A stretch of DNA of 64,000 nucleotides from Levilactobacillus huananensis (GTDB lineage: Bacteria > Bacillota > Bacilli > Lactobacillales > Lactobacillaceae), in the NCBI RefSeq assembly GCF_003946145.1, contig NZ_RHOC01000006.1, forward strand, positions 1 through 64,000. The letters run 5' to 3'. Position 1 is the first letter of the stretch, and each line of letters starts with the position of its first letter. Of the stretch, positions 29,519 to 61,519 are shown one piece after another. The position numbers and the translations under genes are program-made. Below the pieces are notes generated by a model, which worked only from the letters and a program-made list of their open reading frames with translations, made no database searches and was not told the origin of the DNA.

Positions 29519-30757
29519 ATACATCCCGACATGGGAGTACTTTGGCAAGAGTTACCTGGCTAATTCATGGGATCATCCCCCACATCTGTGGGGAGTACCA
29601 GCCTCTTTTTTCGCGCTCAATTCGTAAGCGGGGATCATCCCCACATCCGTGGGGAGTACGCCGAAAAATTCAAATCCGATTGCTCGCCCAAGGGATCATC
29701 CCCACATCCGTGGGGAGTACATTTGGCTGCAGCTCTTCGTCATTGGTGTCTAAGGATCATCCCCACATCCGTGGGGAGTACCACCGCTATTGACTGATAA
29801 CTACAGGCTAGATGGGATCATCCCCACATCCGTGGGGAGTACTTATTTATCGTGCCATTGGAAAAACCTAGGTCAGGATCATCCCCACATCCGTGGGGAG
29901 TACTCACCCAATGAAATTAGAGTACAGTCTTCAAAGGGATCATCCCCACATCCGTGGGGAGTACAAATTAAAGATATCTAAGTTATCTGGATGCTTAGGA
30001 TCATCCCCACATCCGTGGGGAGTACAGGATGACTCATCGACTGTCGCAGAGTCATTATGGATCATCCCCACATCCGTGGGGAGTACTGGGTTAGGCAACA
30101 AAACCATTATCCAGCAGTGGGATCATCCCCACATCCGTGGGGAGTACGTGGAAAAGTCTATGACAACTGGGTGGCTGAGAGGATCATCCCCACATCCGTG
30201 GGGAGTACATTGATTTGGGCCCAAGACAGCTTAGACGAGACGGATCATCCCCACATCCGTGGGGAGTACACCTACGATTGTGAAGCCGATGGGTACGTTA
30301 AGGGATCATCCCCACATCCGTGGGGAGTACTCAGTAATTGTGCCGTCAAGAGAAGTTTTGAGGGGATCATCCCCACATCCGTGGGGAGTACTTTTAGATC
30401 AGAAGGTAACTACTGGTTATTTGAGGATCATCCCCACATCCGTGGGGAGTACATAAATTATAAATAATAAATTATTTATTTTAAAGGATCATCCCCACAT
30501 CCGTGGGGAGTACCGATGACTGGTATCTACCAAACTGCTTCTATGAGGATCATCCCCACATCCGTGGGGAGTACCGACATAGCCATCTCTTGGTCACTGC
30601 CCCACAGGGATCATCCCCACATCCGTGGGGAGTACACAAATTGTCCCAGGAACTTTTTGGTGTCTGGAGGATCATCCCCACATCCGTGGGGAGTACCCGA
30701 TGGGTACGTAAAATTAGATAGTTCTGGGAGGATCATCCCCACATCCGTGGGGAGTAC
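29519..30757 (-). CRISPR. Type I-E CRISPR array 1 (20 repeats plus one decayed)
   Basis: Nineteen identical 28-nt repeats at 61-bp spacing (29632 to 30757), one degenerate repeat at 29570-29598 with an inserted C, and a strongly decayed, shortened copy at 29519-29540. On the crRNA (minus) strand the repeat begins GTACTCCCCAC, has a loop GGAT, and ends GTGGGGATGATCC: a 6-bp hairpin and a 7-nt 5' handle (ATGATCC). Nineteen 33-nt spacers. Decay at the 29.5 kb end marks it as the trailer; the leader side faces cas2, only 29 bp away. One spacer (30453-30485) is pure A/T. Confidence 0.98.
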
Positions 30758-30786: not shown

Positions 30787-33303
<2,517 letters not shown>

Positions 33304-33315
33304 GCTTACTCCTTC

Positions 33316-34017
33316 CTAGATAGCACCGAAAGCGTCATGTGTCGTGTCCGGTTCACTTTCTTGAGAATTTAAATGCGTGAGATCGACCGTCGTTCTTGCA
33401 ATTGCTCGGAATCCGTAACGCCGATCACGTTGATCGAAGGAGACCACACGGTCCTTGACCATGGCACTTGGCTTGTCTGAAAGCAGACTTGCATCGGCTA
33501 CAATTTCTAAACGATGACTTTTACTTCGTCTCTGATACCGTTTATTGGCCTGCCAAGGGAACCTTCTTAACACCGCCACCGGAGTCACGTCTGAGAACAC
33601 CTGAGTAATTAGAAGACCTGCAGGAACATTTGCGCGACGTCCAAGAAATAATTGGAAGCGCGGATGATGCAGGGCCACATTGATGTTTTCAATCATTTGG
33701 GCGTCGTCACTGCCCAACGCAACAACGAACACCGCGTCCTGAATATAATCCCGATAGGTAATCTTACGTGTTTCTTTTTTCCATTCAACCGTCTGAAAGT
33801 CCGTCAACTTCCGACCAATTTGATCGATTCTGACGGCAAAGCTTAGATCGTTTAATGCCAAGATCCGCTCGTCATTTCGGCGATATCCTAACGCGGCGGC
33901 AATCATTCCGATCACCGCACTTTTTGTAGGGTAATCATTCGTTGTCCGCCGCGTAAATGAGGCTTCATTCCCGTACGACTGTAAGGGCGCAGTCAATTTA
34001 ATCGTTAGTATTTTCAT
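33316..34017 (-). CDS. cas5e: Cas5e Cascade subunit
   Basis: 233 residues, starting MKILTIKLTAPLQSYGNEASF, the conserved Cas5 RAMP beginning, with TRRTTNDYPTKSAVIGMIAAALG. It binds the crRNA 5' handle and caps the Cas7 backbone. Overlaps the end of cas7 by 20 bp, indicating tight coupling. Confidence 0.95.
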   Translation of the reverse strand: MKILTIKLTAPLQSYGNEASFTRRTTNDYPTKSAVIGMIAAALGYRRNDERILALNDLSFAVRIDQIGRKLTDFQTVEWKKETRKITYRDYIQDAVFVVALGSDDAQMIENINVALHHPRFQLFLGRRANVPAGLLITQVFSDVTPVAVLRRFPWQANKRYQRRSKSHRLEIVADASLLSDKPSAMVKDRVVSFDQRDRRYGFRAIARTTVDLTHLNSQESEPDTTHDAFGAI

Positions 34018-35071
34018 CTGGAACCACCTTCGATAACGTCTCAGTGACCTTGTCTAACAGCTCAGATAAATTGGACACGCTATCACCAATTTGTGAATCT
34101 GGCTTACCTAAAATAAAGTTTTCGAGTGGCTTCTCAACGAAACTCTCTGTGCGTTGGTACTCATCGTCCAATCGCTTAATCGAAGGGACAACATAGCCAC
34201 CGTCTGAATGAACTGGGTTCTCGAAAGCTGAGACTAAATTGACTGGCGTGTCGGTTCGAATCGTAACCATGACATAGCTTGGTAAGGTCTTATTCGCAAA
34301 TGTATTCTGCTTACCAGTTGGCATTGAAAGTACGAAATCCTTAATAAAGTCCGCTGCCCCATGAATGGCATCTTCTGGGTTAAGATTGTAGGCCAATTCA
34401 TTCATATTTATGTTGGCATAGCGGTAAAGGGTTGCCGAATTGTAATCAATTGTCCCCAGCATGGCAGCACCAGCTGTATCATCGGCTCGCGCATCGTCAA
34501 CCGCCGTAAAGTAGTCATATTCTGGAACCACTTCATGCGTTGAAACGGCGTGGGCAACTTGTGCTGCGGCATCCACATTTAACTCTGGATTATCCGCTAC
34601 CATCCGACCAAATAGGGCCAAATCTAGTGATTGATCACTCTTTAGAACCTTCTTGACTTCTTTTTTATCTAGTTCTTCATTATCTAAGGCATATTGTGCC
34701 AACTTACGAAGCTGACCCTCGCTAACAAACAACAATGCTCCCGTCTCATTTTCCTTGTTCAACTTGATTGAAGCCGCCTTGAAGATGTCGCCGACCTTGC
34801 CCATTGCCGCATCGTCATCTAGCGCGGGATCCAGTGTCTTTAACTCATGAGCAAGCAAGCTAGCAGCCTTTTTCGTTCGTTTTCCAGTAGCCACATTTTC
34901 TTTATCGAATCGGTCCCGAACAGCTTTTTTCCAACTTTGGGAGGACACTCGAGACCGCGTCACACCGCCATAAAAAGCCGTCTTAGGAGCACCGGTATCA
35001 TCCCGGTTAATGTTGGATGATGGCACGGTTTGTAACACGTTCAAATCAACATATAGGTTTTGATTAGTCAT
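33998..35071 (-). CDS. cas7e: Cas7e Cascade backbone subunit
   Basis: 357 residues from the ATG at 35071 after GGGAG; a longer in-frame start lies inside cas11. Starts NLYVDLNVLQTVPSSNINRD and GGVTRSRVSSQSWKKAVR, typical CasC/Cse4. Six copies wrap the crRNA spacer. It overlaps the end of cas11 by 8 bp. Confidence 0.96.
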   Translation of the reverse strand: MTNQNLYVDLNVLQTVPSSNINRDDTGAPKTAFYGGVTRSRVSSQSWKKAVRDRFDKENVATGKRTKKAASLLAHELKTLDPALDDDAAMGKVGDIFKAASIKLNKENETGALLFVSEGQLRKLAQYALDNEELDKKEVKKVLKSDQSLDLALFGRMVADNPELNVDAAAQVAHAVSTHEVVPEYDYFTAVDDARADDTAGAAMLGTIDYNSATLYRYANINMNELAYNLNPEDAIHGAADFIKDFVLSMPTGKQNTFANKTLPSYVMVTIRTDTPVNLVSAFENPVHSDGGYVVPSIKRLDDEYQRTESFVEKPLENFILGKPDSQIGDSVSNLSELLDKVTETLSKVVPDENTND

Positions 35072-35666
35072 TATTTTTCTCTCCCTTAGCTTTATCTGCT
35101 TGTCTGAAATACTGTTGTCCCCAAAGTAAGCGAACTCGGCTGGCCTGTTCATAACTCACTTGTAACCAGTAGAGATCCTGTGCCAACTGGGCAAAATCAA
35201 TCTGCTGGTTATTCCCATGTGATTTCAAAATACTAATCAAGTGGGAAAGCTCGTTGATCACACCTGCTACGTTGGTAGTGGCCAGAAGTGGCTGTACACG
35301 ACGATCCATGGCCACTCGTAAGTCGTCATTTCCTCGCAAGTTACCCAAGGCCCCAAAAAGCATTTGCCCTTTGGCATCCGTACCTCTGGCTGGCGCATAA
35401 ACACACATCGTCTGATTGCCTTGTTGGTAGATCGCATAGAACCGAATAGCCGTGTATACGGCCACTTCTTCTCGAGTTGGTACGCCATTTTTGCTTAGCT
35501 GCTGCTCACTTAGGTTAGCCATTAAGATCGGCCAAACCTTCTGCGAACGTTGACTTGCCACAGTCGGTGCATTTCTCAAATTTGCTAACACTGCCTTGTC
35601 TACCGCGCCATCTCGATAAATCGCGTGAATTATTCGACCGGCAATCTGCTTAAGTTCATCTGCCAT
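35064..35666 (-). CDS. cse2: Cas11 (Cse2) Cascade small subunit
   Basis: 200 residues, all-helical. Conserved YTAIRFYAIYQQG, MFGALGNLR (here MLFGALGNLRG) and RRVQPLLATTN...LSHLISILKSH are Cse2 features. It binds the displaced strand and links Cas8e to Cas6e. Placed between cas8e and cas7. Confidence 0.95.
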   Translation of the reverse strand: MADELKQIAGRIIHAIYRDGAVDKAVLANLRNAPTVASQRSQKVWPILMANLSEQQLSKNGVPTREEVAVYTAIRFYAIYQQGNQTMCVYAPARGTDAKGQMLFGALGNLRGNDDLRVAMDRRVQPLLATTNVAGVINELSHLISILKSHGNNQQIDFAQLAQDLYWLQVSYEQASRVRLLWGQQYFRQADKAKGEKNND

Positions 35667-35675
35667 AGATCCTCA

Positions 35676-37394
35676 TCACTCCTTCTTTAAGTCAAGATGT
35701 TTCCAGACGCTAGACATCAAGTGATTCTTGGCCGTAAAGATATTCAAAGGCCCATTTTTAGTAGAGATCCCCTTAACATCTCTTGGTGAACTGGTCTGCA
35801 TCACGTCATTCACTGACGCTACTACAATTCCCTGAAGTTCCTGTTTCCATAAGGTAATTTTTTCGTCTCGGTTATCCTGGTCGGTCAGACCTTCTAACCA
35901 TTCCTTAAATGGATCATTCAGTTGTTCATAAAATTTCGCACTCATTCCACTAGCAAACGGCCGAACGTCTAAATTACGAATCGTGCCGATGTCACTGGCA
36001 AAATGATAGTAATCTGTTCCGATCGTTTGTGTGAGGCCAATGGTGTCTTCAATCCGCATTGGCCACCGTTTTAGTGGCTCGTTCTGGTCATCGCTAGGAA
36101 AGAGGACATCCGCCTGTAACTGCATATCATCAACTACTTCTGCCGCTGGTGATTGCGAGGTCGCAACGCCGTCACTAATCAGGGCCACTGAATTCAAAAT
36201 CAAAGGGGTCTCACGTGAAATCAATTTTCTCTTTTTCAGTTTATGTAGCCAAACCACAATTCCTGGTTCATGGACATCGTCTGACTGTCGAGCCTTGACA
36301 TATTGACCGAAATTGCGCCACATCGCGATTCCTAAGGATCTTAATCCCTTAACTGCCGGCCGATAAGCATGCTCTTTTTTATCAAAACGCCAAGTTGTCA
36401 TCGGTTCAATCAAGGCATCTTCATAATCAAATATGGGGATACCGGCACTAAAGATATGAGGCGCTCCAGCTTCGTCCCACTCGATATGTAAGATTCGCGA
36501 CCATGTCGTATACAGCTCAGCTAAATTATCTGGTAAAAGCTGAGCCTCCCGGTGCGACACATAGTCTCGGACAGACTTATATTCCCAAACCGGCTTAGGC
36601 AAGGTGTATGCAATCTCGTCCTGCCAGTCGTTCACCAGAATCAAATTCAACAATAACGTTTCAAAAAGCGTCTTTCCCTTAGCAAATACGGGATTAATTC
36701 GGTAGATCCACCCAGCTGAATTTGAGAACTTTTCATCTGTCACAACCTTGGATTTATCAGTCACACCTGTAAAGTTTTGGTAGCTAATGATCCAGCGTAC
36801 CAGCTCATCCAGTGGTAAATCGTTCTTAGTTTCTCCCGCTCTTGGCGCAAAGATAGCCGGTGTATTTCCACTCTCTGAGACCTGACGATTAAGCTGTTTA
36901 ATAGCAACCTGACCTTTACCTCCGGCAACACGTTTTGCTTCAGGCACTAGGGCATCGTAATCTTCTGCGGTCACTTGATAGAACGGGCGAGGACCAAAGA
37001 AATCAAAATCATCACTGTGCGCCTTTAGATAGCGCGTCACCACTGGTGAAAATTGACCCGCCTGACTCAAATTCTGCCAAGTCTTGAACAGATCATCTTC
37101 GCTATCGTCTTCATCAAATTCATCCATGTCGATGCTAACTTCTGCTTTTTCATTTGTCTGTAACCAATCGTATAGCTTCCCCTCGGCATCAAATCGCGAA
37201 TAGACAGTTGTCAAGATAGCTAGCAGAAGCCGTAAGATCGCCAGATCTTGACTACGCATATCACCGGCTAATTGGCGATAGCGATGAGCATTTTCAAATA
37301 AATCAATCAGAGATACCGTTTGTTCCTGATTATCGTCTAGCGTGATGACCTTGATCCACGGTTCCGTGGTTAAATTAAAACTTTCATTGTCCAC
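35676..37394 (-). CDS. cse1: Cas8e (Cse1) Cascade large subunit
   Basis: 572 residues from the GTG at 37394, which follows CAGGAGG at ideal spacing; a longer in-frame start lies inside cas3. The start NESFNLTTEPWIKVITLD is the Cse1 hallmark. It recognises the PAM and recruits Cas3. The 11-bp overlap with cas3 indicates co-translation. Confidence 0.95.
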   Translation of the reverse strand: MDNESFNLTTEPWIKVITLDDNQEQTVSLIDLFENAHRYRQLAGDMRSQDLAILRLLLAILTTVYSRFDAEGKLYDWLQTNEKAEVSIDMDEFDEDDSEDDLFKTWQNLSQAGQFSPVVTRYLKAHSDDFDFFGPRPFYQVTAEDYDALVPEAKRVAGGKGQVAIKQLNRQVSESGNTPAIFAPRAGETKNDLPLDELVRWIISYQNFTGVTDKSKVVTDEKFSNSAGWIYRINPVFAKGKTLFETLLLNLILVNDWQDEIAYTLPKPVWEYKSVRDYVSHREAQLLPDNLAELYTTWSRILHIEWDEAGAPHIFSAGIPIFDYEDALIEPMTTWRFDKKEHAYRPAVKGLRSLGIAMWRNFGQYVKARQSDDVHEPGIVVWLHKLKKRKLISRETPLILNSVALISDGVATSQSPAAEVVDDMQLQADVLFPSDDQNEPLKRWPMRIEDTIGLTQTIGTDYYHFASDIGTIRNLDVRPFASGMSAKFYEQLNDPFKEWLEGLTDQDNRDEKITLWKQELQGIVVASVNDVMQTSSPRDVKGISTKNGPLNIFTAKNHLMSSVWKHLDLKKE

Positions 37395-40170
37395 GATTGT
37401 CGTCCTCCTGTACATACTTAAGTCCTAGTTTTGAAGAATACGTGAGGTGCCAGCCTTCAAAGGTTACTGAGAAGGCTTGGTCTAACGGCAATACTAGTGC
37501 CCCCTTGAGCCAGACATCACTTTGCCAGCCTGAGAAGTAGCGACTAGTTAACGTCTCGAGATCCCTAATCGCCTGATCAACCTTGTCAGAATTCGGTGTA
37601 ATCACAAAGGGAAGTCGAATAATCTGCTGGGCGATTTCCTTTGAATGAACATCTGCCAAAGGTCGACCATCCAACAAGAAGTTCCCCTCCTCCGTGTGCT
37701 GAACCAGAATAACTTCCAAGGTTTCTTTGATATCACGAACCGCTGCACTAGCCTGCTGTTCATCATTACCAATGTTTCCTTGATCACGACTTAACCAGCC
37801 ATGAATAGTCTTACCAGCTTTGAGTTTAGGCTCTCCCACTTGAAAAACATGGGCCTTCTTCTTTTCCTTTTCAAGCTTCACTTTAAATTTAGCTTTAGAC
37901 TCATCGATATCTGCAATTTCACTATCCGTCTTGGGATCGTAAACTGCTTGGACTAGTGGTGAGATGTCGTCTGGTAAGGTGATCTCATCTTTCAAAAAGT
38001 GGTCCGTCTTCATGAGTAGGTACTGACCATAAACAAATCCACTACCGGATTCATATTCATTCGTTCCCTCAATACCCATGACAAATAATTGTGGACTCTG
38101 TAGTGCCGCGGGCCGTTCAATCCGGTGTCGATGAAGCCGTCCCGCCCGTTGAAGGATCAAGTCCATTGGGGCGACATCCGTATACATAACATCGAAATCA
38201 ATGTCCAGTGACTGTTCCAGAACCTGCGTTCCAATTACAATCATTTTTTCCGGACGTGTGCCACGCCTTCCAATTGCATCCTGTATCTTAGTCTCCTGAG
38301 CTGCCCGATCATTGGCCAGAAATGCCGAATGTAGCACCATTAATTTAATGTCTTCAGGCACCAACTGTGCCAGCTTCTGTGCTCGTTTGACGGTATTAAC
38401 AATAACTCCTGCAATACCGCCATCACTGATTTTATTAGCCACATGGGCAATAAGATCTTCATCAGGAAGATTCAATCGTTTAACTTGCAGATGCGTTGGC
38501 TGTTGATCGCTTTTTCCTGGGAACGACGTAACCTGTTTGATTTGACTACCATCTAGAATACTCAGTAATGGATAGGCTTGCGTTTCTTTCCATCCTTCAG
38601 GTGCGATCAGTTTCTTCGTGTACTTTTTGCCATACTTTCCCTTTAAATAAGCCTCTAAAAGCTCATTACGTTTAGCCTTTGGTAGGGTCGCTGACAGGAC
38701 GACAATGGGCACATGATATGCACCTAGCCAGTTGATTGCCTTATACAGGTATTGGTTCATATAGGAATCGTAGGCGTGGACCTCATCAATCACGACCACT
38801 TTGCCACTCAGCCCCAAGTGCCGTAAAAACAAGTGCTTTTGTTTCAATCCCATCAACAAGAGATTATCGATTGTCCCAACCGTAAACTTAGCCAAGATAG
38901 ACTTCTTGCCAGAAAACCAGCCATTAACCACCACTTCTCCAGGTTTGTCTTCATCGCCATAAACGCTTGAAGCATCCGGTAAATCTTGATACTTTTTATT
39001 AAATTGTGCCTTACTATGCATCAACTTAATCTGAAAATTCCCATGTTGTAATTTAGCTAAAACGGCCAGCCAGTCATCGACGCGATCAAACATGGCATTG
39101 GTTGTGGCTTGGGTTGGTAATCCCATGAAGAGGCCATCACTACCAGTAACATAAGCTAGCTGTTCAACTGCCAGCAGAGCTATCTCGGTCTTCCCCAATC
39201 CCATTGGGGCCTCAACAATCACCATACCTGGGTCGAGCGCTTCACCGATAGCTTGACTCATGGCTTTTTGAACCGGACGCGGCTTGAATTTCCAACGATC
39301 AATATAGATTGCATCGAAGTTATTGCGTTGACTCGAATTGAAACGTTGTGGATTCCATTCATCATCAACTGACCAATTTTCTAGTGCATCTCTAAATCGA
39401 GTATTCACATCTATATCATGCCATGACTGATCAAGCGCAATTAAAGGGAACAACGGCTTTGTCTGCTCACGATCTAGATATTCACTAGACGCAAGCCAAT
39501 CTGCCATAATCAACAACCCTTCCAAAATAACTGCTTGTGGCTGTGTGACATCAGGAACATCCTCTGCCTCTTGGTAGCCTGAGGTGGTCAAACCATACTT
39601 AAATAGTTCTTCCTGAACAGCCTTCCATGGCTCTTGAATTTTAGCATCGACATCATCCTGATAGTAATTCGCTGTATAGACATCAATTTGGTCGTCTGGT
39701 GCTTCTTTAGCTGTTTTCCCATGATGTCCGCCAATAATGGCACCAACAGACTCAGGAACACCTAAATCTTCAATGATGGCCTCACCAGCCAAAGCATGCG
39801 GAGATTTGTTTGCAGAGGCTAGCAGCACCTCATCAAGTCCCTGAAATCCACCTTGGGCCAATCTTGCTCTGAGATCATCATCTAATGAATCGTCATGATC
39901 GTATGATTTTTTAATTTGAAAAGCTGTGGTACTTTTGCCAATATCATGAACAAACCCGACAAATTTGACTAATTTTTGTGTTTCTTCTTCCGACATCGCT
40001 CCAGCCAGTAGTCGTTGCTGTGCAGGGCTTAACCAGTGAGTAAATAAGTAATTAATCGTCTTTTGCGTGTCCATCAAGTGAACAATCAAGGGCAACCAAT
40101 ACTGGTACCCTTCCTCACTGCGTTTCTTCGCCCACAACACTGCTGCTTGATCGGATATTTTCATTCCCAT
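37384..40170 (-). CDS. cas3: Cas3 HD-nuclease/helicase, type I-E
   Basis: 928 residues. N-terminal HD nuclease: H31, then HDIGK at residues 75-79 and GGHHGK around 147. Helicase: Walker A APMGLGKTEIA near 318, DEVHAYDS near 463, SATLP after it, and GTQVLEQSLDIDFD plus QRAGRLHRH in the C-terminal RecA lobe. It is recruited by Cascade and degrades target DNA. First gene of the eight-gene cas operon; the gap to array 2 is 426 bp and has a candidate small toxin-like ORF. Confidence 0.97.
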   Translation of the reverse strand: MGMKISDQAAVLWAKKRSEEGYQYWLPLIVHLMDTQKTINYLFTHWLSPAQQRLLAGAMSEEETQKLVKFVGFVHDIGKSTTAFQIKKSYDHDDSLDDDLRARLAQGGFQGLDEVLLASANKSPHALAGEAIIEDLGVPESVGAIIGGHHGKTAKEAPDDQIDVYTANYYQDDVDAKIQEPWKAVQEELFKYGLTTSGYQEAEDVPDVTQPQAVILEGLLIMADWLASSEYLDREQTKPLFPLIALDQSWHDIDVNTRFRDALENWSVDDEWNPQRFNSSQRNNFDAIYIDRWKFKPRPVQKAMSQAIGEALDPGMVIVEAPMGLGKTEIALLAVEQLAYVTGSDGLFMGLPTQATTNAMFDRVDDWLAVLAKLQHGNFQIKLMHSKAQFNKKYQDLPDASSVYGDEDKPGEVVVNGWFSGKKSILAKFTVGTIDNLLLMGLKQKHLFLRHLGLSGKVVVIDEVHAYDSYMNQYLYKAINWLGAYHVPIVVLSATLPKAKRNELLEAYLKGKYGKKYTKKLIAPEGWKETQAYPLLSILDGSQIKQVTSFPGKSDQQPTHLQVKRLNLPDEDLIAHVANKISDGGIAGVIVNTVKRAQKLAQLVPEDIKLMVLHSAFLANDRAAQETKIQDAIGRRGTRPEKMIVIGTQVLEQSLDIDFDVMYTDVAPMDLILQRAGRLHRHRIERPAALQSPQLFVMGIEGTNEYESGSGFVYGQYLLMKTDHFLKDEITLPDDISPLVQAVYDPKTDSEIADIDESKAKFKVKLEKEKKKAHVFQVGEPKLKAGKTIHGWLSRDQGNIGNDEQQASAAVRDIKETLEVILVQHTEEGNFLLDGRPLADVHSKEIAQQIIRLPFVITPNSDKVDQAIRDLETLTSRYFSGWQSDVWLKGALVLPLDQAFSVTFEGWHLTYSSKLGLKYVQEDDNRGQ

Positions 40171-40596: not shown

Positions 40597-42577
40597 GAAT
40601 CACCCCCACATACGTGGGGAGTACGAACGGCTATATCCCATTTCGTCGCCCACTACAGGATCATCCCCACATACGTGGGGAGTACAAATTAGGAAGTCGA
40701 CCGGTTAACTGATTATCGGGATCATCCCCACACACGTGGGGAGTACGCCGAGCTGGTCACGTACACACTAAACATTTGAGGATCATCCCCACATACGTGG
40801 GGAGTACCATCAGAACTGCCACGCAACTTCATCTCGTCCAGGATCATCCCCACATACGTGGGGAGTACACCTAAAGCCTTTGATGCCACTTATGGCAATC
40901 AGGATCATCCCCACATACGTGGGGAGTACAAACTGGTTGAACTATCAATTTCGATTGTTCCGGGATCATCCCCACATACGTGGGGAGTACGGTCGTATGA
41001 TACGTGGTCCATTACCTTAGCCAGGATCATCCCCACATACGTGGGGAGTACCATAACATCCAGTACCTTGCCGTTTTCTTCTGTGGATCATCCCCACATA
41101 CGTGGGGAGTACTAATCAAATATTATACATCGCTCTATGGAAACGGGATCATCCCCACATACGTGGGGAGTACTCAAAGTTGGCCTTCTCAGCCGTCCCA
41201 GCGTCAGGATCATCCCCACATACGTGGGGAGTACCAGCGCTACACTGACGCATAGCCAGTTGACTTAGGATCATCCCCACATACGTGGGGAGTACAAATA
41301 GTAACGCATTGACGTGTGGTAGTCGTCAGGATCATCCCCACATACGTGGGGAGTACAAAGCGATATGTGACAGCGCCGTCTCCTTGGTGGGATCATCCCC
41401 ACATACGTGGGGAGTACGGATAAACATTACTTGGTAGCCATTTGGAGCGGGGATCATCCCCACATACGTGGGGAGTACTGATTCTGACGAGGATGATGGC
41501 TACTGATGCGAGGGATCATCCCCACATACGTGGAGAGTACAATTTGTCAAGTAATTACGGGTCGTTTTTAACGGGATCATCCCCACATACGTGGGGAGTA
41601 CATCATCGCGCCGCTAACCGTCACATTATCCTTGGGATCATCCCCACATACGTGGGGAGTACGGTAATCACAATCACTGGCAGTGGTCAGGGTTAGGATC
41701 ATCCCCACATACGTGGGGAGTACTCCTTTGGCAACTCTTTAATGGCCGCCCAGTAAGGATCATCCCCACATACGTGGGGAGTACGTGGTGACAGCTTGGA
41801 TAACCAGCCGGCGTTAAGGATCATCCCCACATACGTGGGGAGTACAATTACCGAATCCATTGTGTAAAGAGCTAGTGGGGATCATCCCCACATACGTGGG
41901 GAGTACCGGGAGAAACCGGCGCCGCCGGTAAAGATGGTGGGATCATCCCCACATACGTGGGGAGTACATAGTGAATAAGTAAATATCGTTCTGACAATAA
42001 GGATCATCCCCACATACGTGGGGAGTACACTTTGGCCCGTTGAACTGGACGACGGTGTGAGGGATCATCCCCACATACGTGGGGAGTACTTGTGATAACT
42101 GACGTGGGTCTGCATCTGCAAAGGATCATCCCCACATACGTGGGGAGTACAGTGCCTGTGAGTTCTTCCCAGTATGCCGCTAAGGATCATCCCCACATAC
42201 GTGGGGAGTACGCTGCGGGTCCCCAACAACTTTGCCGCTAAATAGGATCATCCCCACATACGTGGGGAGTACTTTTCTTTTGGCGGCGGCTTGCCGTCCC
42301 AAAAGGGATCATCCCCACATACGTGGGGAGTACAAAGCACTGACTAACCGGCTGAGTGACTGCTAGGGATCATCCCCACATACGTGGGGAGTACTGTATC
42401 AGTTGTCGTATCTAAGGTGGCGACTCGGGATCATCCCCACATACGTGGGGAGTACCTGACCCACGGGGGTTCTTACCTCAACGGGATAGGATCATCCCCA
42501 CATACGTGGGGAGTACTATTGGTTGTCGTTGAGGTAGCAGTATTAGTGGGGATCATCCCCACATACGTGGGGAGTAC
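40597..42577 (-). CRISPR. Type I-E CRISPR array 2 (33 repeats, 32 spacers)
   Basis: 28-nt repeats at 61-bp spacing from 40597 to 42577. One spacer (41479-41512) is 34 nt, the others 33. On the crRNA strand the repeat is like that of array 1 except for the loop (GTAT in place of GGAT). The first copy at 40597 is slightly degenerate (two changes), marking the trailer; single changes occur at 40719 (loop) and 41513 (stem). The leader is at the 42.58 kb side. Spacer 41907-41939 reads as GETGAAGKDG on the plus strand, typical of collagen-like phage tail fibres. Confidence 0.98.
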
Positions 42578-43076: not shown

Positions 43077-44240
43077 ATGAATGAAATTCTAAAAACCCAG
43101 TTCTTCGTCGACGATCTATCCGACGATCAGAAACGGATCATCACCAATATCAACGACTACATCAAGCAAGGCCTGCAAGGCGACACCTCTTCCGTCGCCA
43201 TTATCGAAGGCGCTGCGGGAACCGGGAAGTCGGTTGTCTTGATGGAACTGGTTCGCCAATACATGACTGACAAGCGTTATAAGACCTCCCTAGTGGTTAA
43301 CCACCCCGAGTTGTACAAGGCTTACCAGGACATCGCCGAATCAATTCCCAACATGAAAGTCAACTCGATTCGCCGGCCAACGTCATTGATTAACTACGCC
43401 CAAAAGAACCACAAGAAGTATGACGTCATTTTCGTTGACGAGGCGCATCTGCTCTACTCGAAATCAGAACCCTACGCTCATTATCGTGGGCAGAACCAAC
43501 TGACCGACCTGATGGATTTAGCCAAAGTCGTCGTCGTGGTTTACGATTTCGATCAGGTCTTCCAATCCAAGATGTACTGGGACAAGGATCTACTCTTCAA
43601 GACGATTGGCTCTCACCCCCACAAATCGTTCAACATGAACTTCCAGTACCGGATGGTGGCTAGCGATGAACAAGTGGCCTGGATGGACGACCTGACCGCT
43701 GAAAAGCCTCTGAAGCCCTTCCCTGACAACAGCGACTTCGACTTCAAGATGTTCGATACCGCTGGGGCGATGTTTGACACCATCAAGAAACGCAACAAAG
43801 AAGTCGGCATGAGCCGGATGGTTGCCACCTCTGGCTTCCCCCGAATCGATGGCCGGCACAATGTTGAAATGGACTCCTTCAACCTGCCATGGGACGAATG
43901 GGACCCGCAACGAACTCACTGGGCCAAGCGAGAAGGATCCATTACCCAAGTTGGGACTATTTACACACTTCAAGGCTTCGACCTGAACTACGTTGGTATG
44001 ATTATCGGGCCTTCGTTTGGTTACGATCCACAAACGGATACCATGACCATCATCCCCGAGAAGTACTCTCACAAGGAGATCTTCAAGAAACGTAAGGATA
44101 TGAAGTTCACGCAAGATGAGTACCGGACGTTCATTGCTAACGTCTTGAACGTGCTGATGAAGCGTGGTAAGTATGGCCTGTACCTGACGGCTTACGACGA
44201 TGCGCTGCGGAAACGCCTGCTAGAAATCACTAAAAAGTAA
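43077..44240 (+). CDS. DUF2075 (Schlafen-like) P-loop ATPase/helicase
   Basis: 387 residues. Walker A IEGAAGTGKSVVL, Walker B VIFVDEAHLL, then VYDFDQVFQ (motif III-like), FQYRM and a C-terminal GTIYTLQGFDLNYVGMIIG, the 'T.QG.E.d.vGvi.G' of DUF2075/Schlafen group 3 helicases. Full-length single-domain form without an N-terminal nuclease. Such ATPases appear in housekeeping and phage-defence settings. It stands divergent from array 2 with its own promoter and terminator. Function not known. Confidence 0.85.
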   Translation: MNEILKTQFFVDDLSDDQKRIITNINDYIKQGLQGDTSSVAIIEGAAGTGKSVVLMELVRQYMTDKRYKTSLVVNHPELYKAYQDIAESIPNMKVNSIRRPTSLINYAQKNHKKYDVIFVDEAHLLYSKSEPYAHYRGQNQLTDLMDLAKVVVVVYDFDQVFQSKMYWDKDLLFKTIGSHPHKSFNMNFQYRMVASDEQVAWMDDLTAEKPLKPFPDNSDFDFKMFDTAGAMFDTIKKRNKEVGMSRMVATSGFPRIDGRHNVEMDSFNLPWDEWDPQRTHWAKREGSITQVGTIYTLQGFDLNYVGMIIGPSFGYDPQTDTMTIIPEKYSHKEIFKKRKDMKFTQDEYRTFIANVLNVLMKRGKYGLYLTAYDDALRKRLLEITKK

Positions 44241-45385: not shown

Positions 45386-45916
45386 ATGGAAAAAGGGGAG
45401 AATTTACGCGACAAGATCTTCAAACATTGGTTCGGCGTTTCCGGGGAATTCGACGAATACAAGCGTCAGGAAGTCAACCGAATTGCGGCGAATGCTTTCA
45501 TGCTGTACTTTCCCGGCATGTTACTATCACTCGCGGTCGCGGGGATCTTCGCCATTAAGAATCCTGATATGACGTTGGCTGTCCTATTGCTGAGTCAGCT
45601 CGGTTATTTCGTTCTCATCGTCTGTACCTACATCATGTTTGCTTCACGTCGCGCACACCTAACCGATAACGAAATTGACGCCAGGACGACTAAACAGGCC
45701 TACCACCATATCATCCGCAAGGGACTCTCAACGGGCATTTACTTTGGCTTATTCATGTACTTGGAACAAGCCGTCATGAACCTTTGGTTTGATGGTACCA
45801 GCCTGACCCAGTCACTCACCCAACCCCACGTCATCTGGGTCTCCATCTGGAGTGGGGTCGGCATGGGCATCATAATTGTTATTCAGGAAGTCATTCGACT
45901 CCGAAAGTTTCATTAA
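45386..45916 (+). CDS. DUF3278-like membrane protein
   Basis: 176 residues, four predicted helices (LYFPGMLLSLAVAGIFAI, TLAVLLLSQLGYFVLIVCTY, GIYFGLFMYLEQAVM, VIWVSIWSGVGMGIIIVI). Starts 3 bp after the Xre stop and so is co-transcribed. DUF3278 proteins of lactic acid bacteria are known only as partners of small Xre regulators. Followed by a strong terminator. Confidence 0.8.
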   Translation: MEKGENLRDKIFKHWFGVSGEFDEYKRQEVNRIAANAFMLYFPGMLLSLAVAGIFAIKNPDMTLAVLLLSQLGYFVLIVCTYIMFASRRAHLTDNEIDARTTKQAYHHIIRKGLSTGIYFGLFMYLEQAVMNLWFDGTSLTQSLTQPHVIWVSIWSGVGMGIIIVIQEVIRLRKFH

Positions 45917-51615: not shown

Positions 51616-52022
51616 ATCCGAGTGGGTTGCGATCTGTCGTTTTCTTGAATAGTCCTAGAATAACAGCAAAATGTGATAAACTTATGAACTCCATATGTGT
51701 TTTCTAATAACATTAACCCGGTTGCTATGTTACACATTAAATGTATTGTGTGCACATATACCTCGCTGGCTTAGTTATTCCCCTTTATTTCTACCATACT
51801 ATTCCCGTGAGTATGGGCTACCAATCAGTCCTGATCACCACTGGCCATACAATTAGCCAGTCTGCAGGACAGCCACTCCTGTCTTTAGCAAACAAAAATA
51901 AAGGCCATCCAATAGAATTGAACGCCCTTTTTGACTCACCCCACCATACCAGCAGGAATTAACCGTATTCGTAACAAAAGCCGCAACTAATCTTACCCCA
52001 AGTTCAGTTGCCGTCTTTCAGG
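51616..52022. other. Intergenic region upstream of the pilus operon
   Basis: About 400 bp without a gene that I can support; it should hold the pilus promoter (minus strand). No unmistakable box pair. Confidence 0.45.
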
Positions 52023-52382
52023 TTATAGGGCCCCGAAAAATCCTTCGGCAAAGCCCGTCATCCCCAAGAAGATAAAGATGGCCGCCACGACAATCAAAAC
52101 GACCCCTGCGGACACGTGTTTGTTCCTAATGGTTAGCACGCCCAAAACTATCGAAGCGATCCCGATTATCGGAATAAAAAGTGAAGCCACTGCGGATAAC
52201 CATCCCCAAAGAAGGAACATACCAACCCTTTTGCGGGATTGTACTTGTTCCTGAACTGACGCGGGCCCAGTTGCATAGCTCCCCATGGGCTGGGCCTGCA
52301 TCGCGCCACACTTCGGGCAAACTTCCGCATTAATCGTCATTTTCGTCCCACAATTTGGACAAATCTTGGTTCCCTGATCCAT
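52023..52382 (-). CDS. Zinc-ribbon membrane protein
   Basis: 119 residues from the ATG at 52382 after GGAGG. N-terminal double CxxC zinc ribbon (CPNCGTK, CPKCGAM), then two hydrophobic helices (GMFLLWGWLSAVASLFIPIIGI and VVLIVVAAIFIFLGM). Function unknown; this DUF4190-like layout is common in Firmicutes. Confidence 0.75.
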   Translation of the reverse strand: MDQGTKICPNCGTKMTINAEVCPKCGAMQAQPMGSYATGPASVQEQVQSRKRVGMFLLWGWLSAVASLFIPIIGIASIVLGVLTIRNKHVSAGVVLIVVAAIFIFLGMTGFAEGFFGAL

Positions 52383-52582
52383 AAACCTCTCCTCCAATAC
52401 TTCTTACTTGTCGTCCAGACTTGTATTGGGTACATCGCTGCTAAAAGCTAAATACCCGCAACTGTCAGTGAATGTGCTACACTGGGGCTAATAAGCACCT
52501 CGAATTCAGCCTGACTAGCCCGGTTAGGACCCTAGACAAAGCTTCACCAAAATACAACTATGGGCATTGATCCAATCCTGCA

Positions 52583-52609
52583 GACGGGAAAGGACTAGCC
52601 TTTCCCGTC
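52583..52609. repeat. Inverted repeat 52.58 kb
   Basis: GACGGGAAAGG-ACTAG-CCTTTCCCGTC, a perfect 11-bp stem. It lies 80 nt beyond the mini-CRISPR on its transcription strand, so it could end that transcript, though only CTGCAG follows. Confidence 0.5.
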
Positions 52610-52688
52610 CTTGATACTTTCTCCAAGTTAACTCACACCCCGACTGTCTTAAGTTGCAAGTTAACTCAAAACTTCGCATGTTACCAAT

Positions 52689-52766
52689 GACTCGTCCCTA
52701 CATCCGTGGGGAATACTTCAGCAATTCCAAATGATATTGGATCACCCCCAATAACTTGGGGAGTGG
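52689..52766 (-). CRISPR. Degenerate two-repeat mini-CRISPR (crRNA-like RNA candidate)
   Basis: Two pseudo-repeats (52739-52766 and 52689-52716) of the same type as the arrays flank a 22-nt pseudo-spacer (52717-52738). The upstream copy, read on the minus strand, has 21 of 28 matching bases but keeps its hairpin: CCCCAA-loop-TTGGGG in place of CCCCAC-loop-GTGGGG, a compensatory change of the sixth pair, and ends GTGATCC (handle). The downstream copy matches 23 of 28 and has one stem mismatch. The layout (psi-repeat, short psi-spacer, more degraded psi-repeat) is that of CreA/CreR RNAs. Confidence 0.75.
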
Positions 52767-52776
52767 CTATGAGTAA

Positions 52777-52805
52777 ATAATACAACATATCGTTTGGAAT
52801 TGCAA
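52777..52805 (-). promoter_or_regulatory. Promoter of the mini-CRISPR with an internal target site
   Basis: Minus strand -35 TTGCAA (52805-52800), 17-bp spacer, -10 TATTAT (52782-52777). Predicted start about 52770, four bases before the pseudo-repeat. The plus strand 52787-52803, ATATCGTTTGGAATTGC, matches pseudo-spacer positions 2-18 (ATATCATTTGGAATTGC) at 16 of 17, with AA at 52784-52785 just outside position 1. The site covers the -35 and most of the spacer. Confidence 0.7.
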
Positions 52806-52928
52806 ATTAGGATGTGAATTTTGATCACGTTCGGGTAAACTCGGAACGTTCCCTATTAGACGCCCATCCCCTGACTTTATCCTATGTGCATCACTCTTTT
52901 TTAAACGAAATCATTGTCAATAGTCAGC

Positions 52929-52961
52929 AAGTGGTCGTCCAAAAATTTTGGACGACCACTT
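52929..52961. repeat. Perfect 33-bp palindrome
   Basis: AAGTGGTCGTCCAAAA-A-TTTTGGACGACCACTT: 16-bp arms with a one-base centre. It is flanked by TTT on one side only. It may be a terminator without a gene or a binding site. Confidence 0.6.
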
Positions 52962-53445
52962 TTAGATGACAGGTGTCAGTTCAGGCACCACCTAAGACAA
53001 GCCCTCCAAAAAAATAATTTAGCAATTGATCGCATTACAACTAGAGTCCCATGCAACATCTCATCTTTTTCAGTCCTGATGACAGAGATCACTTTAGCAG
53101 TGACATCTACCAGCCACTATCTAATCCCCACCATTCACTTGTTCGGCCATCACAGGAAACCAGACCCTTGACTATCACAATTTAACTTTCCCAATTCCAC
53201 ACAACTGGTCATAATCCAGACGCAGACTGCCTTTCCTCGCCACATAGTTCAGACTAATAGTAAGCAGTCCTGAATGCTAATACTTCAACTGGTTACCAAA
53301 ACATGGTGTTTATTATGAAGAATAAAAGGTGTACACTGAGAACAAAACATATTTATCCAAAAAGTGATATACAGTGCAAATGTTTTTAGCCTCTAAGTTA
53401 GTCAGAACGGCAGCACGATGATCATCTCGGAATCTCGACTAGGAC

Positions 53446-57517: not shown

Positions 57518-59347
57518 TTATTTTTCTAACACTTTCATTTTATTACTCGTGACAAAGCTGCCATCATTAAGTACCAAGCGCGTGGTTAAATGATACCGAA
57601 CCAGCTTCTTAACCCGTAAGACCGTCCCGCGTTTCAGATGTCTGACATGCTTTTTTAATGCCTTATCACGGTAAGCATTGGTCCCTTGGATAACTTTGAC
57701 TTGCTTAGGCGCATGCTGGTAATACGTGTGCACCGTAAAGGCTCGCTTGGCCGTCATATAACCGGTCATGCCGTATCGCTTGGATCCTGGTGTCACGTCG
57801 CGAACCAGGTAACGTTTAAAGCCACTCTTGGAACGTGCGACCCCTGTAATCACGAACTGTGGCCGCAACGTTCGCTTTTGCTTGGCGTAGTAATACTGCC
57901 GTGTCTTGCGACTAAAGTCTGGTGTGCGGTAAAAACCAACCTTTTTAACAGCCGTAATCGCGCGATCCTTTCGTGCGACCGGATCGTCAGTTACCTTATC
58001 AGGGATACTCGTTTCACCGTCACCGGAGCCATCCGTCACTGTTCCCGGTGGCGTTGGTAACGCCTGATAGTGCAACGTGACTTCACTCGCATCGTCTTTG
58101 CTGTAGGTTCCTGTCAACTGAAGATCGGGGTCCTCAACTTGCTGATAGCCCTTAATTTCCGGTGGCGTGATTGTATAAGGTTCCCCAGCATCCCCCGTTA
58201 AGACCAGGTCCTCTTGCAACGAACGCCCTGATTCGTCACTAAAATGAACCGTGACAGGCTTCCCTTGAATCGGTAACTTGGTTGGTTGCCACATATAAGT
58301 CACATCGCCCTTGGGCCGAGTAGCTGCATTCTCCCCATACATGGTCATCAGTTGTGCTGAACGATACGTGTTCGGATTGTCACTCTGATACCGATCGTCT
58401 TTATTCTCCCACCGCCCCGTATACATGGGATCACTTTCATCGGGATCTGTTGGAATCTCTGCTAGTCCAGCCTGAGATAAGTCGAGATTGTCATTCAAGG
58501 TTACTTGATAGACGGGATAGATACTTAAATCATCCGTAAAAAGGTCTACTAGTGCCACCTGTGGTCGCCAATTAGAAAGATTCACAGCCAATTTAGCTGC
58601 TCGTGGTAATGAACTAAACATCGCACTGAACCCCGATTCATCACCACTGGCCTTCACCTGACTAACATCAAAACCCGACAAATCAAGAACAAGACGAAAT
58701 GACCCATTACCAACCTCCCGAAACATAAATGCCATGTTTGTCACCTGACTCGTATTAAATCCCTTACTAGTCAATCCGACAATATTACTGGTAAGGTTCG
58801 TGTTTTGTCTGAACATGCTCGCCATACTCGTGACTTTTGAGGTATCAAAACTTGAAACATCCAGCCGCTGTTGACTAGAATCCAAGAACATCCCAGTCAT
58901 ATCGGTCGTCTGACTCGTTTCCAAATTCTGCCAATTTCTAATTTGTGGTATGGGAAAAGGATAATCACCCTTGTCTATATTTAACGTCGAAAAACCACTA
59001 AATAAGTACGCGGCATTCGGCGGTGTCTGAACCTGACCATCAAAAGAGATCGTATTAATGATTGTGCTATACCCCCTGATGAGCGCACTAAAAGGTGATA
59101 CTCTGGGTTGCATCGGCCACGGTGAGGTATCAAGCGGCGCTTCGGGCAGCATTCCTGGTCCAATATGTAGAACATCTCCAACAAATTTATAATCACAAGT
59201 TCCAAATTTTCCGGTAACCGGCGTCGTATCCGCATGTGCCACCACCGTTGGCGACCAACTCTTCACTTTCGGCGAGTTATCTACGAGTACCGCGCCACTA
59301 AAGACCAATGCTACCGTTATGGCTAGGCCCATCACTCTGGATTTCAT
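57518..59347 (-). CDS. BspA-like (DUF285) surface protein with MucBP and DUF5776, copy 1
   Basis: 609 residues. Signal peptide; a BspA/DUF285 repeat block (residues 120-260: DMTGMF, SSFDTSKVTSMASMF, NTSQVTNMAFMF); a MucBP domain (near 365-425: VTVHFSDESGRSLQED); and a C-terminal DUF5776 block (about 460-609) rich in Lys/Arg/Tyr that likely binds the wall. No LPxTG, so retention depends on DUF5776. Nearly identical C-terminus to the next gene. Start after AAGGAGG. Confidence 0.88.
   Translation of the reverse strand: MKSRVMGLAITVALVFSGAVLVDNSPKVKSWSPTVVAHADTTPVTGKFGTCDYKFVGDVLHIGPGMLPEAPLDTSPWPMQPRVSPFSALIRGYSTIINTISFDGQVQTPPNAAYLFSGFSTLNIDKGDYPFPIPQIRNWQNLETSQTTDMTGMFLDSSQQRLDVSSFDTSKVTSMASMFRQNTNLTSNIVGLTSKGFNTSQVTNMAFMFREVGNGSFRLVLDLSGFDVSQVKASGDESGFSAMFSSLPRAAKLAVNLSNWRPQVALVDLFTDDLSIYPVYQVTLNDNLDLSQAGLAEIPTDPDESDPMYTGRWENKDDRYQSDNPNTYRSAQLMTMYGENAATRPKGDVTYMWQPTKLPIQGKPVTVHFSDESGRSLQEDLVLTGDAGEPYTITPPEIKGYQQVEDPDLQLTGTYSKDDASEVTLHYQALPTPPGTVTDGSGDGETSIPDKVTDDPVARKDRAITAVKKVGFYRTPDFSRKTRQYYYAKQKRTLRPQFVITGVARSKSGFKRYLVRDVTPGSKRYGMTGYMTAKRAFTVHTYYQHAPKQVKVIQGTNAYRDKALKKHVRHLKRGTVLRVKKLVRYHLTTRLVLNDGSFVTSNKMKVLEK
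57540..57965 (-). repeat. Near-identical DUF5776 coding segment, copy 1
   Basis: Almost the same base sequence as 59692-60122 on the same strand; the encoded blocks share long identical runs (RTLRPQFVITGVARSKSGFK, KRYGMTGYMTAKRAFTVHTY). The rest of the two genes is much more diverged. Confidence 0.85.
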
Positions 59348-59573
59348 AAAAGTAATCCTCCTTAAGGCTTTGTACGTGTTACTATGAAATAAGCGTTAGT
59401 GAATAAATTCACAATATTGATTAAGCCTAGTATATCAAATAATCACTCCCCTGTGTTGCCCCACATCATGTAATCAGCGAACTTTCTTCCGGTAACCCTT
59501 ATTCGCTAGCCAGTTGATTGAAGGTCATCAGCGACGTTCTAATCTGTTTCTTGCTTGGAATTGACCGAAAAAC

Positions 59574-59624
59574 AAAAAAATAGACAGATTTGAATCGAAA
59601 GTTACGATTCAAATCTGTCTATTT
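59574..59624. terminator. Terminator of the second BspA-like gene
   Basis: Perfect 17-bp stem TAGACAGATTTGAATCG / CGATTCAAATCTGTCTA; on the minus strand it is followed by a T run (TATTTTTTTG). Confidence 0.9.
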
Positions 59625-59671
59625 CATTCCCTATGCCTATCGCTAATCATTCCCAGCGTACTCACAAAGAC

Positions 59672-61519
59672 TTACTTTTCAATAACTTTTTCTTTATTAC
59701 TTGTAACATAACTACCGTCGTTAAGTACCAAGCGCGTCGTTAAGTGGTAGCGTACCAGTTTCTTAACCCGTAAGACCGTTCCGCGTTTCAGATGTCTGAC
59801 ATGCTTTTTTAATGCCTTATCACGGTAAGCATTGGTCCCCTGGATGACTTTGACTTGCTTAGGTGCATGCTGGTAATACGTGTGCACCGTAAAGGCTCGC
59901 TTGGCCGTCATATACCCGGTCATGCCGTATCGCTTGGACCCCGGCGTCACGTCGCGAACCAAGTAACGTTTGAATCCGCTCTTGGAACGTGCCACCCCTG
60001 TAATCACGAACTGTGGCCGCAACGTTCGCTTTTGCTTGGCGTAGTAATACTGCCGTGTCTTGCGACTAAATTCCGTCGTGTGGTAAAAGCCTAGCTTTTT
60101 AACAGCCGTAATCGCACGATCTTTTTTGGCAACCATTTTCACTTGATCTGGGTCCTTAGTGTTGGCGCTATCACTCGAACTAGATGACTCACTGGGCGAC
60201 GGTTTAGGCACCGCCTTATAAGTCAGCGTCACACTCTGCGGATCCGAAGTATAGGTTCCCGTCAGTGAGCCATCAGTAGCCTTGACGTAGTGATAGCCAG
60301 CAATTGTTGCCGGTTTCACAGTATACGTCGCACCTAGATCACCGGGGAGCTGCGTATCCGCCTGAATCGTTTTACCATCTTGATCAACGTAATGGATCGT
60401 CACGGGATTTCCCGGTGTCACATCTGGTTCCATAACGTACGTTTCATCAGTCGTGGGCTTATCGAGACTTCCCTGTTGATAAAGGGTCGCAATGTCAGTC
60501 AAGTTATAAGTCTTTTTATTGGGGTCTGCTGAGTACAAGTCACGTATATTTTCCCATTTTTGATCTAAAGCACTAGTACCGTCCGAGTTTTTTTGTGGAA
60601 AACTCGTATCCGTCAGGTTGATATCCGGACTCAATGTTATCTTCGACAAGTGAGTCCCGTCCCCCATCAAATTATCTAGCGGTACTTGCGGCTTCCAGCC
60701 CGAAAGATCAATCGTGACGGTTTTACCATTCAAATAAAACATTTTGTCAAATCCGCTTCGCGAAACATTATCGCCATAATCGTCTACGTAGTCCATGTGA
60801 TGGACTTTGCTAACATCAAAGTGCGATAAATCAAGCTTCACATCATGATAGCCATCGCCAATCTCGTTAAACATTTTTCCCATATCCGTAACTTGGCTCG
60901 TGTCAAAGTGGTCGAGTCCCACGATGTTACTCGTCAAGTTATTATTACCATCAAACATCTCCTGCATTGAGGTGACTTTACTGGTATCGAAGCTAGAAAC
61001 GTCGATAGCCAGCTGACCTGAACTGGCGAACATGTCTGTCATGTTGGTCGTCTCACTCACGTCTAAGCGGTTTAAATTTTTAATTTGCGGCGCGACATCC
61101 ATATTGTTAACCATATTAAGTTGATAAAAAAGATGGGACGCATTTTCCGGTGCTTTAACAGGACCATCAAAAGATATTGTTTTTACAACGTGGCCATCAT
61201 TACTAAGAGCCCCCAGAATAGCTGCCAACGTTCCTGTCCAACTGTAATAATCCCCAAACGGCGCATGATGAACCGTTCTGGTTGCAGGCGGTAACGTCCC
61301 CGCGCCAATGTGCATGACGCCGTCCGACGTATAATTCCACGGACAGGTGCCTTCACCATTTTCGTCTTGCACGATTCCTCGAGTGGCATTACTGGCATCG
61401 GCATGAGCCACTACAATTGGTGACCCACTCGCTACCGGTCCGCGCAAGTCCCCGCTGACCACTGCGCCACTAAATGACAGAGCAGCTACCAAAGCCATCC
61501 CAACTATACTATGTTTCAT
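59672..61519 (-). CDS. BspA-like (DUF285) surface protein with MucBP and DUF5776, copy 2
   Basis: 615 residues from the ATG at 61519 after GGGGAGG. Signal peptide; BspA/DUF285 repeats (VSETTNMTDMF, SSFDTSKVTSMQEMF, HFDTSQVTDMGKMF); MucBP (VTIHYVDQDGKTIQAD); a Ser/Asp linker; and the DUF5776 C-terminus. A tandem paralogue of the gene at 57518. Likely adhesin. Confidence 0.88.
   Translation of the reverse strand: MKHSIVGMALVAALSFSGAVVSGDLRGPVASGSPIVVAHADASNATRGIVQDENGEGTCPWNYTSDGVMHIGAGTLPPATRTVHHAPFGDYYSWTGTLAAILGALSNDGHVVKTISFDGPVKAPENASHLFYQLNMVNNMDVAPQIKNLNRLDVSETTNMTDMFASSGQLAIDVSSFDTSKVTSMQEMFDGNNNLTSNIVGLDHFDTSQVTDMGKMFNEIGDGYHDVKLDLSHFDVSKVHHMDYVDDYGDNVSRSGFDKMFYLNGKTVTIDLSGWKPQVPLDNLMGDGTHLSKITLSPDINLTDTSFPQKNSDGTSALDQKWENIRDLYSADPNKKTYNLTDIATLYQQGSLDKPTTDETYVMEPDVTPGNPVTIHYVDQDGKTIQADTQLPGDLGATYTVKPATIAGYHYVKATDGSLTGTYTSDPQSVTLTYKAVPKPSPSESSSSSDSANTKDPDQVKMVAKKDRAITAVKKLGFYHTTEFSRKTRQYYYAKQKRTLRPQFVITGVARSKSGFKRYLVRDVTPGSKRYGMTGYMTAKRAFTVHTYYQHAPKQVKVIQGTNAYRDKALKKHVRHLKRGTVLRVKKLVRYHLTTRLVLNDGSYVTSNKEKVIEK
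59692..60122 (-). repeat. Near-identical DUF5776 coding segment, copy 2
   Basis: Partner of 57540-57965. The sudden drop of similarity at the N-terminal side of DUF5776 suggests gene conversion or selection on the wall-binding block only. Confidence 0.85.

Follow-up and report, generated by a model that had tools for sequence, protein, structure and literature searches.

A CreR-type mini-CRISPR in the leader of a Levilactobacillus huananensis mRNA may direct Cascade to the promoter of that same mRNA

The primary description of CreR is that of Liu et al. in 2023. CreR are the cas-regulating RNAs of modulatory mini-CRISPRs and repress cas promoters (PMC12737573; PMC13131331). Related systems are CreTA, which occurs in archaea and bacteria (PMC8501985) and in a type I-E version in Citrobacter rodentium (PMC12055562), and CrePA, in which the protein toxin CreP is repressed by CreA-Cascade (PMC12737573). 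Here we describe a mini-CRISPR from the window, i.e. the whole 64-kb stretch of L. huananensis DNA that was analysed, consisting of two pseudo-repeats (psiR1 and psiR2) and a single pseudo-spacer (psiS) upstream of a gene for a zinc-ribbon membrane protein (Zn-TM; Table 1). We consider it rather probable that psiS is a CreR-type guide within the leader of an mRNA, and that Cascade would use this guide to repress the promoter of that mRNA.

Table 1. Coordinates of the mini-CRISPR module and of the CRISPR-Cas locus in the window
Feature	Position	Strand	Detail
CRISPR array 1	29571..30757	-	repeat GTACTCCCCACGGATGTGGGGATGATCC
Type I-E cas operon: cas3, cas8e, cse2, cas7, cas5e, cas6e, cas1, cas2-DnaQ fusion	30787..40170	-	
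CRISPR array 2	40597..42577	-	repeat GTACTCCCCACGTATGTGGGGATGATCC
Terminator-like hairpin and T-run after the Zn-ribbon gene	51889..51930	-	by eye; 4/4 species
119-aa protein, zinc ribbon and two hydrophobic stretches (Zn-TM)	52023..52382	-	PF13240; hydrophobic stretches read by eye
Conserved structured leader, psiR2 to Shine-Dalgarno	52398..52688	-	~290 nt
Leader hairpin 2, without U-tract	52583..52610	-	consensus fold
Leader long hairpin 1	52622..52671	-	consensus fold
psiR2, degenerate repeat with Cas6e hairpin	52689..52716	-	23/28 and 22/28 identity to the array repeats
psiS, 22-nt guide	52717..52738	-	sequence AATATCATTTGGAATTGCTGAA
psiR1, degenerate type I-E repeat, 3' handle GTGATCC	52739..52766	-	20/28 and 21/28 identity to the two array repeats
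-10 hexamer TATTAT	52777..52782	-	TATTAT or TACTAT in 4/4 species
PAM AAC (AAY)	52784..52786	+	AA at 52784-52785, C at 52786
Protospacer of psiS	52787..52803	+	sequence ATATCGTTTGGAATTGC; 16/17 pairing
-35 hexamer TTGCAA, shared promoter	52800..52805	-	TTGCAA or TTGTAA in 4/4 species

The window holds a full type I-E cas set, in which cas8e scored 62.4, slightly below the NCBIfam cut-off of 70.05. Its Cas2 is fused to a DnaQ-like exonuclease domain (30787-31677). Fifty of the 51 array spacers measure 33 nt and one measures 34 nt, as compared with 22 nt for psiS, and 48 start with a pyrimidine; one array-1 spacer (30453-30485) consists of A and T only. An array-2 spacer matches Lactobacillus phage Lb at 31/33 positions and plasmids of Levilactobacillus brevis and Lactiplantibacillus plantarum at 32/33 each, and an array-1 spacer matches a different place of phage Lb at 32/33. 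The protospacers of both are flanked by TAA, followed by C or T as the first base. The native PAM read from the window's own arrays is thus AAY, as derived from these two distinct spacers (a second phage Lb place for array 1 and two further L. brevis plasmid matches were left out), and the psiS target therefore carries the native motif.

Single type I-E repeats with the same leader-like flank were seen on several plasmids, including those of Pediococcus damnosus (L231, 1501-1542) and L. plantarum (L232, 1501-1544), the latter adjoining an IS30-like transposase gene, and similar single-repeat matches were present on Loigolactobacillus backii plasmids. A search for the module on plasmids gave no match. 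Elsewhere in the window, a Schlafen-group-3 helicase gene lies beside array 2 (43077-44240; 87-88% identity in three relatives; partial PADLOC matches to Nhi and AbiO), a DUF3278 protein with a weak PADLOC match to Csx18 is encoded between the array and pilus genes (45386-45916), and two adjacent large surface-protein-like genes (57518-61537) are 90% identical over their last 300 bases.

The earlier note on this DNA had aligned psiS bases 2-18 with 52787-52803 on the opposite strand, next to AA and a pyrimidine, and we re-derived this match as 16/17 with AAC. In the 32-nt E. coli Cascade numbering these bases are positions 1-17, and the sole mismatch falls on position 6, a guide position that Cascade flips out. 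Pairing ends after position 17, with mismatches at 18, 19 and 21. The protospacer spans four bases of the -35 hexamer and part of the 17-bp spacer between -35 and -10 of a minus-strand promoter, and psiR1 starts at 52766. The promoter claimed to underlie the target, TTGCAA-17-TATTAT, was likewise found on the minus strand, albeit as a type of match that is also common in shuffles: a strict scan of 52380-53000 on both strands returned the mini-CRISPR promoter as the sole site, by two overlapping matches as compared with 1.1 (sd 0.9) in shuffled sequence. Promoter quality alone is at chance level, and at about one per 620 nt such sites are not rare. For the guide-target match, the probability of 16/17 with AA within 800 bp on both strands is approximately 6e-7 at even base composition. 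Of 71 repeat-like pairs, which came almost entirely from unrelated genomes, none had a best site that reached 14/17 with AA. This null was drawn from a repeat-pair pattern scan with at least 119 stretches; 80 loci were retrieved, nearly all of them chance-like and used as a null only, and nine were too short to score.

Across the 2.29-Mb genome, the PAM with the first 11 guide positions (6 left free) occurs free of mismatches solely at the guide's own promoter, and with up to one mismatch there are 10 matches versus 11 for the reversed control. That psiS is an ordinary CreR acting in trans on the cas operon or on another gene, its own-promoter match being incidental, would accord with the CreR-type mini-CRISPRs aimed before cas3 in related genomes (see below). 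This is very improbable in view of the single mismatch-free site, of a co-variation that is with the own promoter, and of the best sites upstream of cas3, which reach 9/15 scored positions and of which none carries AAY among the six matches listed; the next best of the 4652 AAY sites in the window has 12/15, with 5/7 in the seed. Given that neither the region upstream of cas3 nor the rest of the 64 kb offers a good target, the guide cannot set Cascade levels directly. The earlier proposal was that the guide shuts its own promoter via Cascade and so forms a homeostatic loop for Cascade; its first half has strong support at the sequence level, and the loop is not upheld, as no comparable target was found before cas3.

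A search with a 201-base query (E ≤ 0.01) located the module in four of 35 genus genomes, the window's own being one of them and the others being designated G012, G015 and G020. Some match to the query was present in 13 of the 35, those outside the four carriers being repeat-sized (22-35 bases). In a family-wide search, 47 of 397 genomes had matches; among those listed, the module is covered in these four genomes and no others. A cas6e match was obtained in 21 of the 35 genus genomes and in all four carriers. The position of the module is constant, at a distance of 10-14 kb from the array towards cas3, and the main flanking aligned blocks are 82-88% identical. Match and geometry are kept in G012, G015 and G020 with changes on both sides, and the AAC PAM is kept across the carriers. 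Two guide types can be distinguished, one in the window and G012, the other in G015 and G020. Cognate guides and targets pair at 16, 16, 14 and 13 of 17 positions, the lowest value being that of G020, versus 12, 11 and 10 when swapped between the lineages. Guide positions 8-11 change from TTGG to GATA, and the promoter counterpart reads GTTA in G015 and GATA in G020. Co-variation of pseudo-spacer and promoter in relatives, which had been set beforehand as a test of the proposal, is thus borne out. The four carrier species are in effect two lineages, which counts against the reading that the guide represses its own mRNA, and so does the pairing of only 13/17 in G020. The pseudo-repeat stems show paired changes across the module-bearing species, and the psiR1 stem is, by alignment, also kept in G012, G015 and G020. 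One C-G pair of the psiR2 stem appears as G-C in G012, and in the window it is lost to C-A; this broken pair counts against own-mRNA repression as well.

Mini-CRISPRs before cas3 were surveyed in the family by two routes. A two-repeat short-guide pattern occurred at 10 places in nine of the 397 genomes and nowhere in the reversed control. Three of the 10 are modules of the window type; that of G012 was missed because its psiR2 reads GTATTCCCG. In G137, G219, G226 and G362, the guide has a match flanked by AAC or AAT immediately upstream of an ORF whose N-terminus resembles that of Cas3 (identified in G226 and G362 by a search with the N-terminus of the window's Cas3, and in G137 and G219 by eye). 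The remaining three places, without such a match, are an array end in G026, an array member in G362 and a likely chance occurrence in G267. By a direct scan of the regions upstream of cas3, a guide with an AAY target was found in seven of 24, as compared with none of 960 base-shuffled regions with restored handles. The 24 comprise 17 of 18 retrieved within the genus and seven of nine in the genus of G362; two were short. G226 and G362, found earlier, are among the seven, G002 passed a looser scan only, and in G033 the target lies far upstream of its guide and is uncertain. CreR-like mini-CRISPRs are thus no rarity here, even if 17 of the 24 regions yielded none; those before cas3 in other Lactobacillaceae mostly target a site closer to cas3. 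In two genomes of the genus, G031 (L263) and G024 (L265), cas3 is present as two ORFs and the cas6e match is kept; Cascade may persist there without Cas3, or these may be draft errors.

The mismatches within positions 1-15 follow a rhythm: eight of 11 fall on position 6 or 12 in seven distinct guide-target pairs (p ~1e-5, assuming an even spread, with same-clade pairs being not fully independent). The seven pairs are three from the window's clade and four mini-CRISPRs of three other genera, all ranked on the full 17 positions, and each group displays the rhythm by itself (four of five mismatches, p 0.001, in the window's clade; four of six, p 0.004, in the others). The pairs of G001, G002, G006, G025, G033 and G353 were left out of this statistic because the scans that produced them ignored positions 6 and 12. 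A six-base rhythm is what the structure of the Cascade R-loop predicts, and the pattern argues for selection through Cascade over a DNA repeat kept otherwise. Guide and target do form an inverted repeat around psiR1. This would also suit an origin independent of Cascade, in which the match is a relic, or an inverted repeat maintained through DNA-level conversion or because it folds into a hairpin within a longer transcript. Such an origin is extremely improbable, as mismatches at 6 and 12 are equally seen in direct-orientation CreRs, where a hairpin of this kind is impossible, as the AAC PAM is kept and as the pseudo-repeat stems show paired changes.

Between psiR2 and the Zn-TM gene lies a leader under constraint. 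The gene has an intact reading frame in each of the four species, and in the five distant pairs its dN stays well under dS. In these pairs the p-distance of the leader is 0.15-0.23 versus 0.36-0.58 for pS of the gene, and divergence over the 200 nt ahead of the promoter is 0.35-0.44, similar to that of synonymous sites. The promoter-plus-mini-CRISPR stretch differs by 0.15 within the window/G012 lineage and by 0.30-0.31 between lineages, which exceeds the value of the leader; the larger distance is as expected for a joint change of guide and target and is not proof of constraint. The near-identical pair G015/G020 displays little difference in any region. The region between transcript start and gene start has a consensus fold of -109 kcal/mol versus -79 (sd 4.5) in 50 column shuffles, with modest covariation: across the four sequences, both partners changed in four of 117 pairs. 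In one alignment fold (A3) psiR1 can pair with the Shine-Dalgarno region, and in another it forms a local hairpin. No Rfam family matched 52300-53100 up to E = 1. Upstream of the mini-CRISPR promoter, a strong terminator-like hairpin (52930-52960) is present in all four species, with paired changes by alignment.

When the 620 nt preceding the gene were scanned less strictly, all promoter-like sites (at least 8/12) lay at or upstream of the mini-CRISPR promoter in all four species, and none lay between psiR2 and the gene. The mini-CRISPR promoter ranked alone at the top in G012 and second to an overlapping site in G020. In the window it shared first place with sites that use the same -10 or lie 115 nt upstream, and in G015 with an overlapping site and another one upstream. 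A scan of the window found no intrinsic terminator between psiR2 and the gene. Mini-CRISPR, leader and gene are taken as one unit because the constrained leader joins them without a promoter of its own, and with no other recognisable promoter before it, the gene would probably be silenced together with the guide. The leader could hold a promoter or attenuator missed by these scans. On this point turns the possibility that the guide is a self-limiting small RNA whose repression is confined to its own transcription, and that the Zn-TM promoter is hidden in the leader. Negative feedback requires no further output, the strong hairpins after psiR2 might terminate or stabilise such an RNA, and Zn-TM relatives elsewhere showed no mini-CRISPR in a motif scan; we nevertheless hold it to be unlikely, as neither promoter-like site nor terminator was found from psiR2 to the gene and as the leader constraint extends to the Shine-Dalgarno sequence.

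The Zn-ribbon protein matched zinc-ribbon models only in Pfam, with no KilA-N, and had no PADLOC match up to E 0.01. Homologues of 49-53% identity in G007 and G028 lack upstream pseudo-repeats in a simple motif scan, and G007 gave no cas6e match, indicating that the gene is not dedicated to CRISPR. These data also bear on an addiction or abortive-infection module of the CreTA/CrePA type, in which the Zn-TM protein, or a toxic RNA or ORF of the leader, would harm the cell upon failure of Cascade. The logic would be that of the published systems, the product is a small membrane protein, and an ATG followed by CGA or AGA in the leader is conserved across the carriers. The homologue in a genome without a cas6e match and the missing PADLOC match speak against such a module, as does the leader ORF itself, which makes a poor toxin candidate since its frame is not kept, it stops after five codons in G015 and it has no clear Shine-Dalgarno sequence. 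A divergent plus-strand toxin is not favoured either, that side of the promoter being as free as synonymous sites. Taken together, we judge an addiction module quite unlikely.

For the reading that we prefer, own-mRNA repression through the leader-borne guide, we propose the following course. One promoter would transcribe psiR1-psiS-psiR2, the structured leader and the Zn-TM gene. Cas6e would cleave both pseudo-repeats to give a short crRNA that is loaded on Cascade, and psiS-Cascade would bind the promoter via the AAC PAM and an R-loop of approximately 17 bases, with bases 6 and 12 flipped out. Bound Cascade would block RNA polymerase and thereby exert negative feedback on the source mRNA of the guide. 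Cutting by Cas3 is not expected, given that pairing ends at position 17 and that the guide lacks about two Cas7 steps in length; both features should protect the site from attack, an argument that draws on published work on CreR/CreA and on Cascade biochemistry. Loss of Cascade, competition from other crRNAs or inhibition by an anti-CRISPR would allow both guide and membrane protein to be made. Repression of Zn-TM and its release upon loss of Cascade follow if the transcript reads through into the gene. Probably, then, the CRISPR machinery keeps the guide and the membrane-protein gene off until that machinery is lost or blocked.

That Cascade would repress the promoter of its own guide is well supported at the sequence level by PAM, mismatch pattern, co-variation and the full cas set. 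The sequences also show the match itself, a conserved promoter and a constrained leader with no promoter-like site in it. We suggest more tentatively that the leader-borne guide, by acting on the promoter of its own mRNA, turns a gene that is neither cas nor a known toxin into an RNA-guided readout of Cascade availability; this is possible, somewhat short of an even expectation. The Zn-TM gene would then be the output of the circuit, with a putative physiological role as an alarm for anti-CRISPRs. If true, this would be a third output beyond cas genes and toxins, through a compact feedback circuit with one promoter, and lactic acid bacteria would possess a natural reporter for the loss of Cascade or for anti-CRISPR activity. 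It would further offer a concrete test of CRISPR-Cas control over host membrane functions and, together with the mini-CRISPR of G006 described below, point to cis-embedded guides as a general way for type I-E hosts to place genes under CRISPR control.

From its sequence, the window module is filed as a variant of the CreR/CreA kind. As in CreR, two degenerate repeats flank one guide outside the arrays, and the guide partly matches a promoter beside the PAM of the system (here 16/17, AAC). In CreR, Cascade is the repressor, with an expected response to crRNA load and anti-CRISPRs, and the same is proposed here. Unlike in CreR, the guide targets the promoter from which it would be transcribed, which lies 12.6 kb from cas3, the downstream gene is not a cas gene, and the guide sits inside the leader of the mRNA that it would repress; a cas-promoter target was looked for and not found, and the module is for this reason not filed as CreR proper. 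The earlier note had held that a guide on its own promoter is not a standard described case. The locus now appears less isolated, in that CreR is published and G006, a genome of the same genus, displays the same geometry. There, psiS has a 13/17 match with an AAT PAM on the opposite strand, across the -35 and spacer of the promoter that precedes it (TGGACA-18-TATTAT, 10/12), and as in the window the TATTAT stands just before psiR1; the G006 mini-CRISPR differs in its lower pairing, in a second spacer unit and in having cas3 as the next gene. It represents the geometry of the window before a different gene, in a single genome, and would be a cas autoregulator. Among the titles and abstracts listed in one open library, none describes a guide that targets its own promoter and is followed by a non-cas gene, which gives slender grounds for regarding such a case as absent from the literature.

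With CrePA, the module would share a protein gene under crRNA-guided Cascade that is released by anti-CRISPRs (PMC12737573). CreP is described as typically a KilA-N protein (PMC12737573), whereas the window gene encodes a Zn-ribbon membrane protein of no known toxicity. With CreTA it shares a crippled crRNA, the psiR1/psiS/psiR2 order, a short pairing that skips position 6 and linkage to the cas locus (PMC8501985; PMC12055562); unlike in CreTA, no clear toxic RNA or ORF was found in the window module. In the C. rodentium CreTA, guide and toxin lie on opposite strands and the toxin promoter is the target (PMC12055562), whereas in the window module guide and gene share both strand and promoter.
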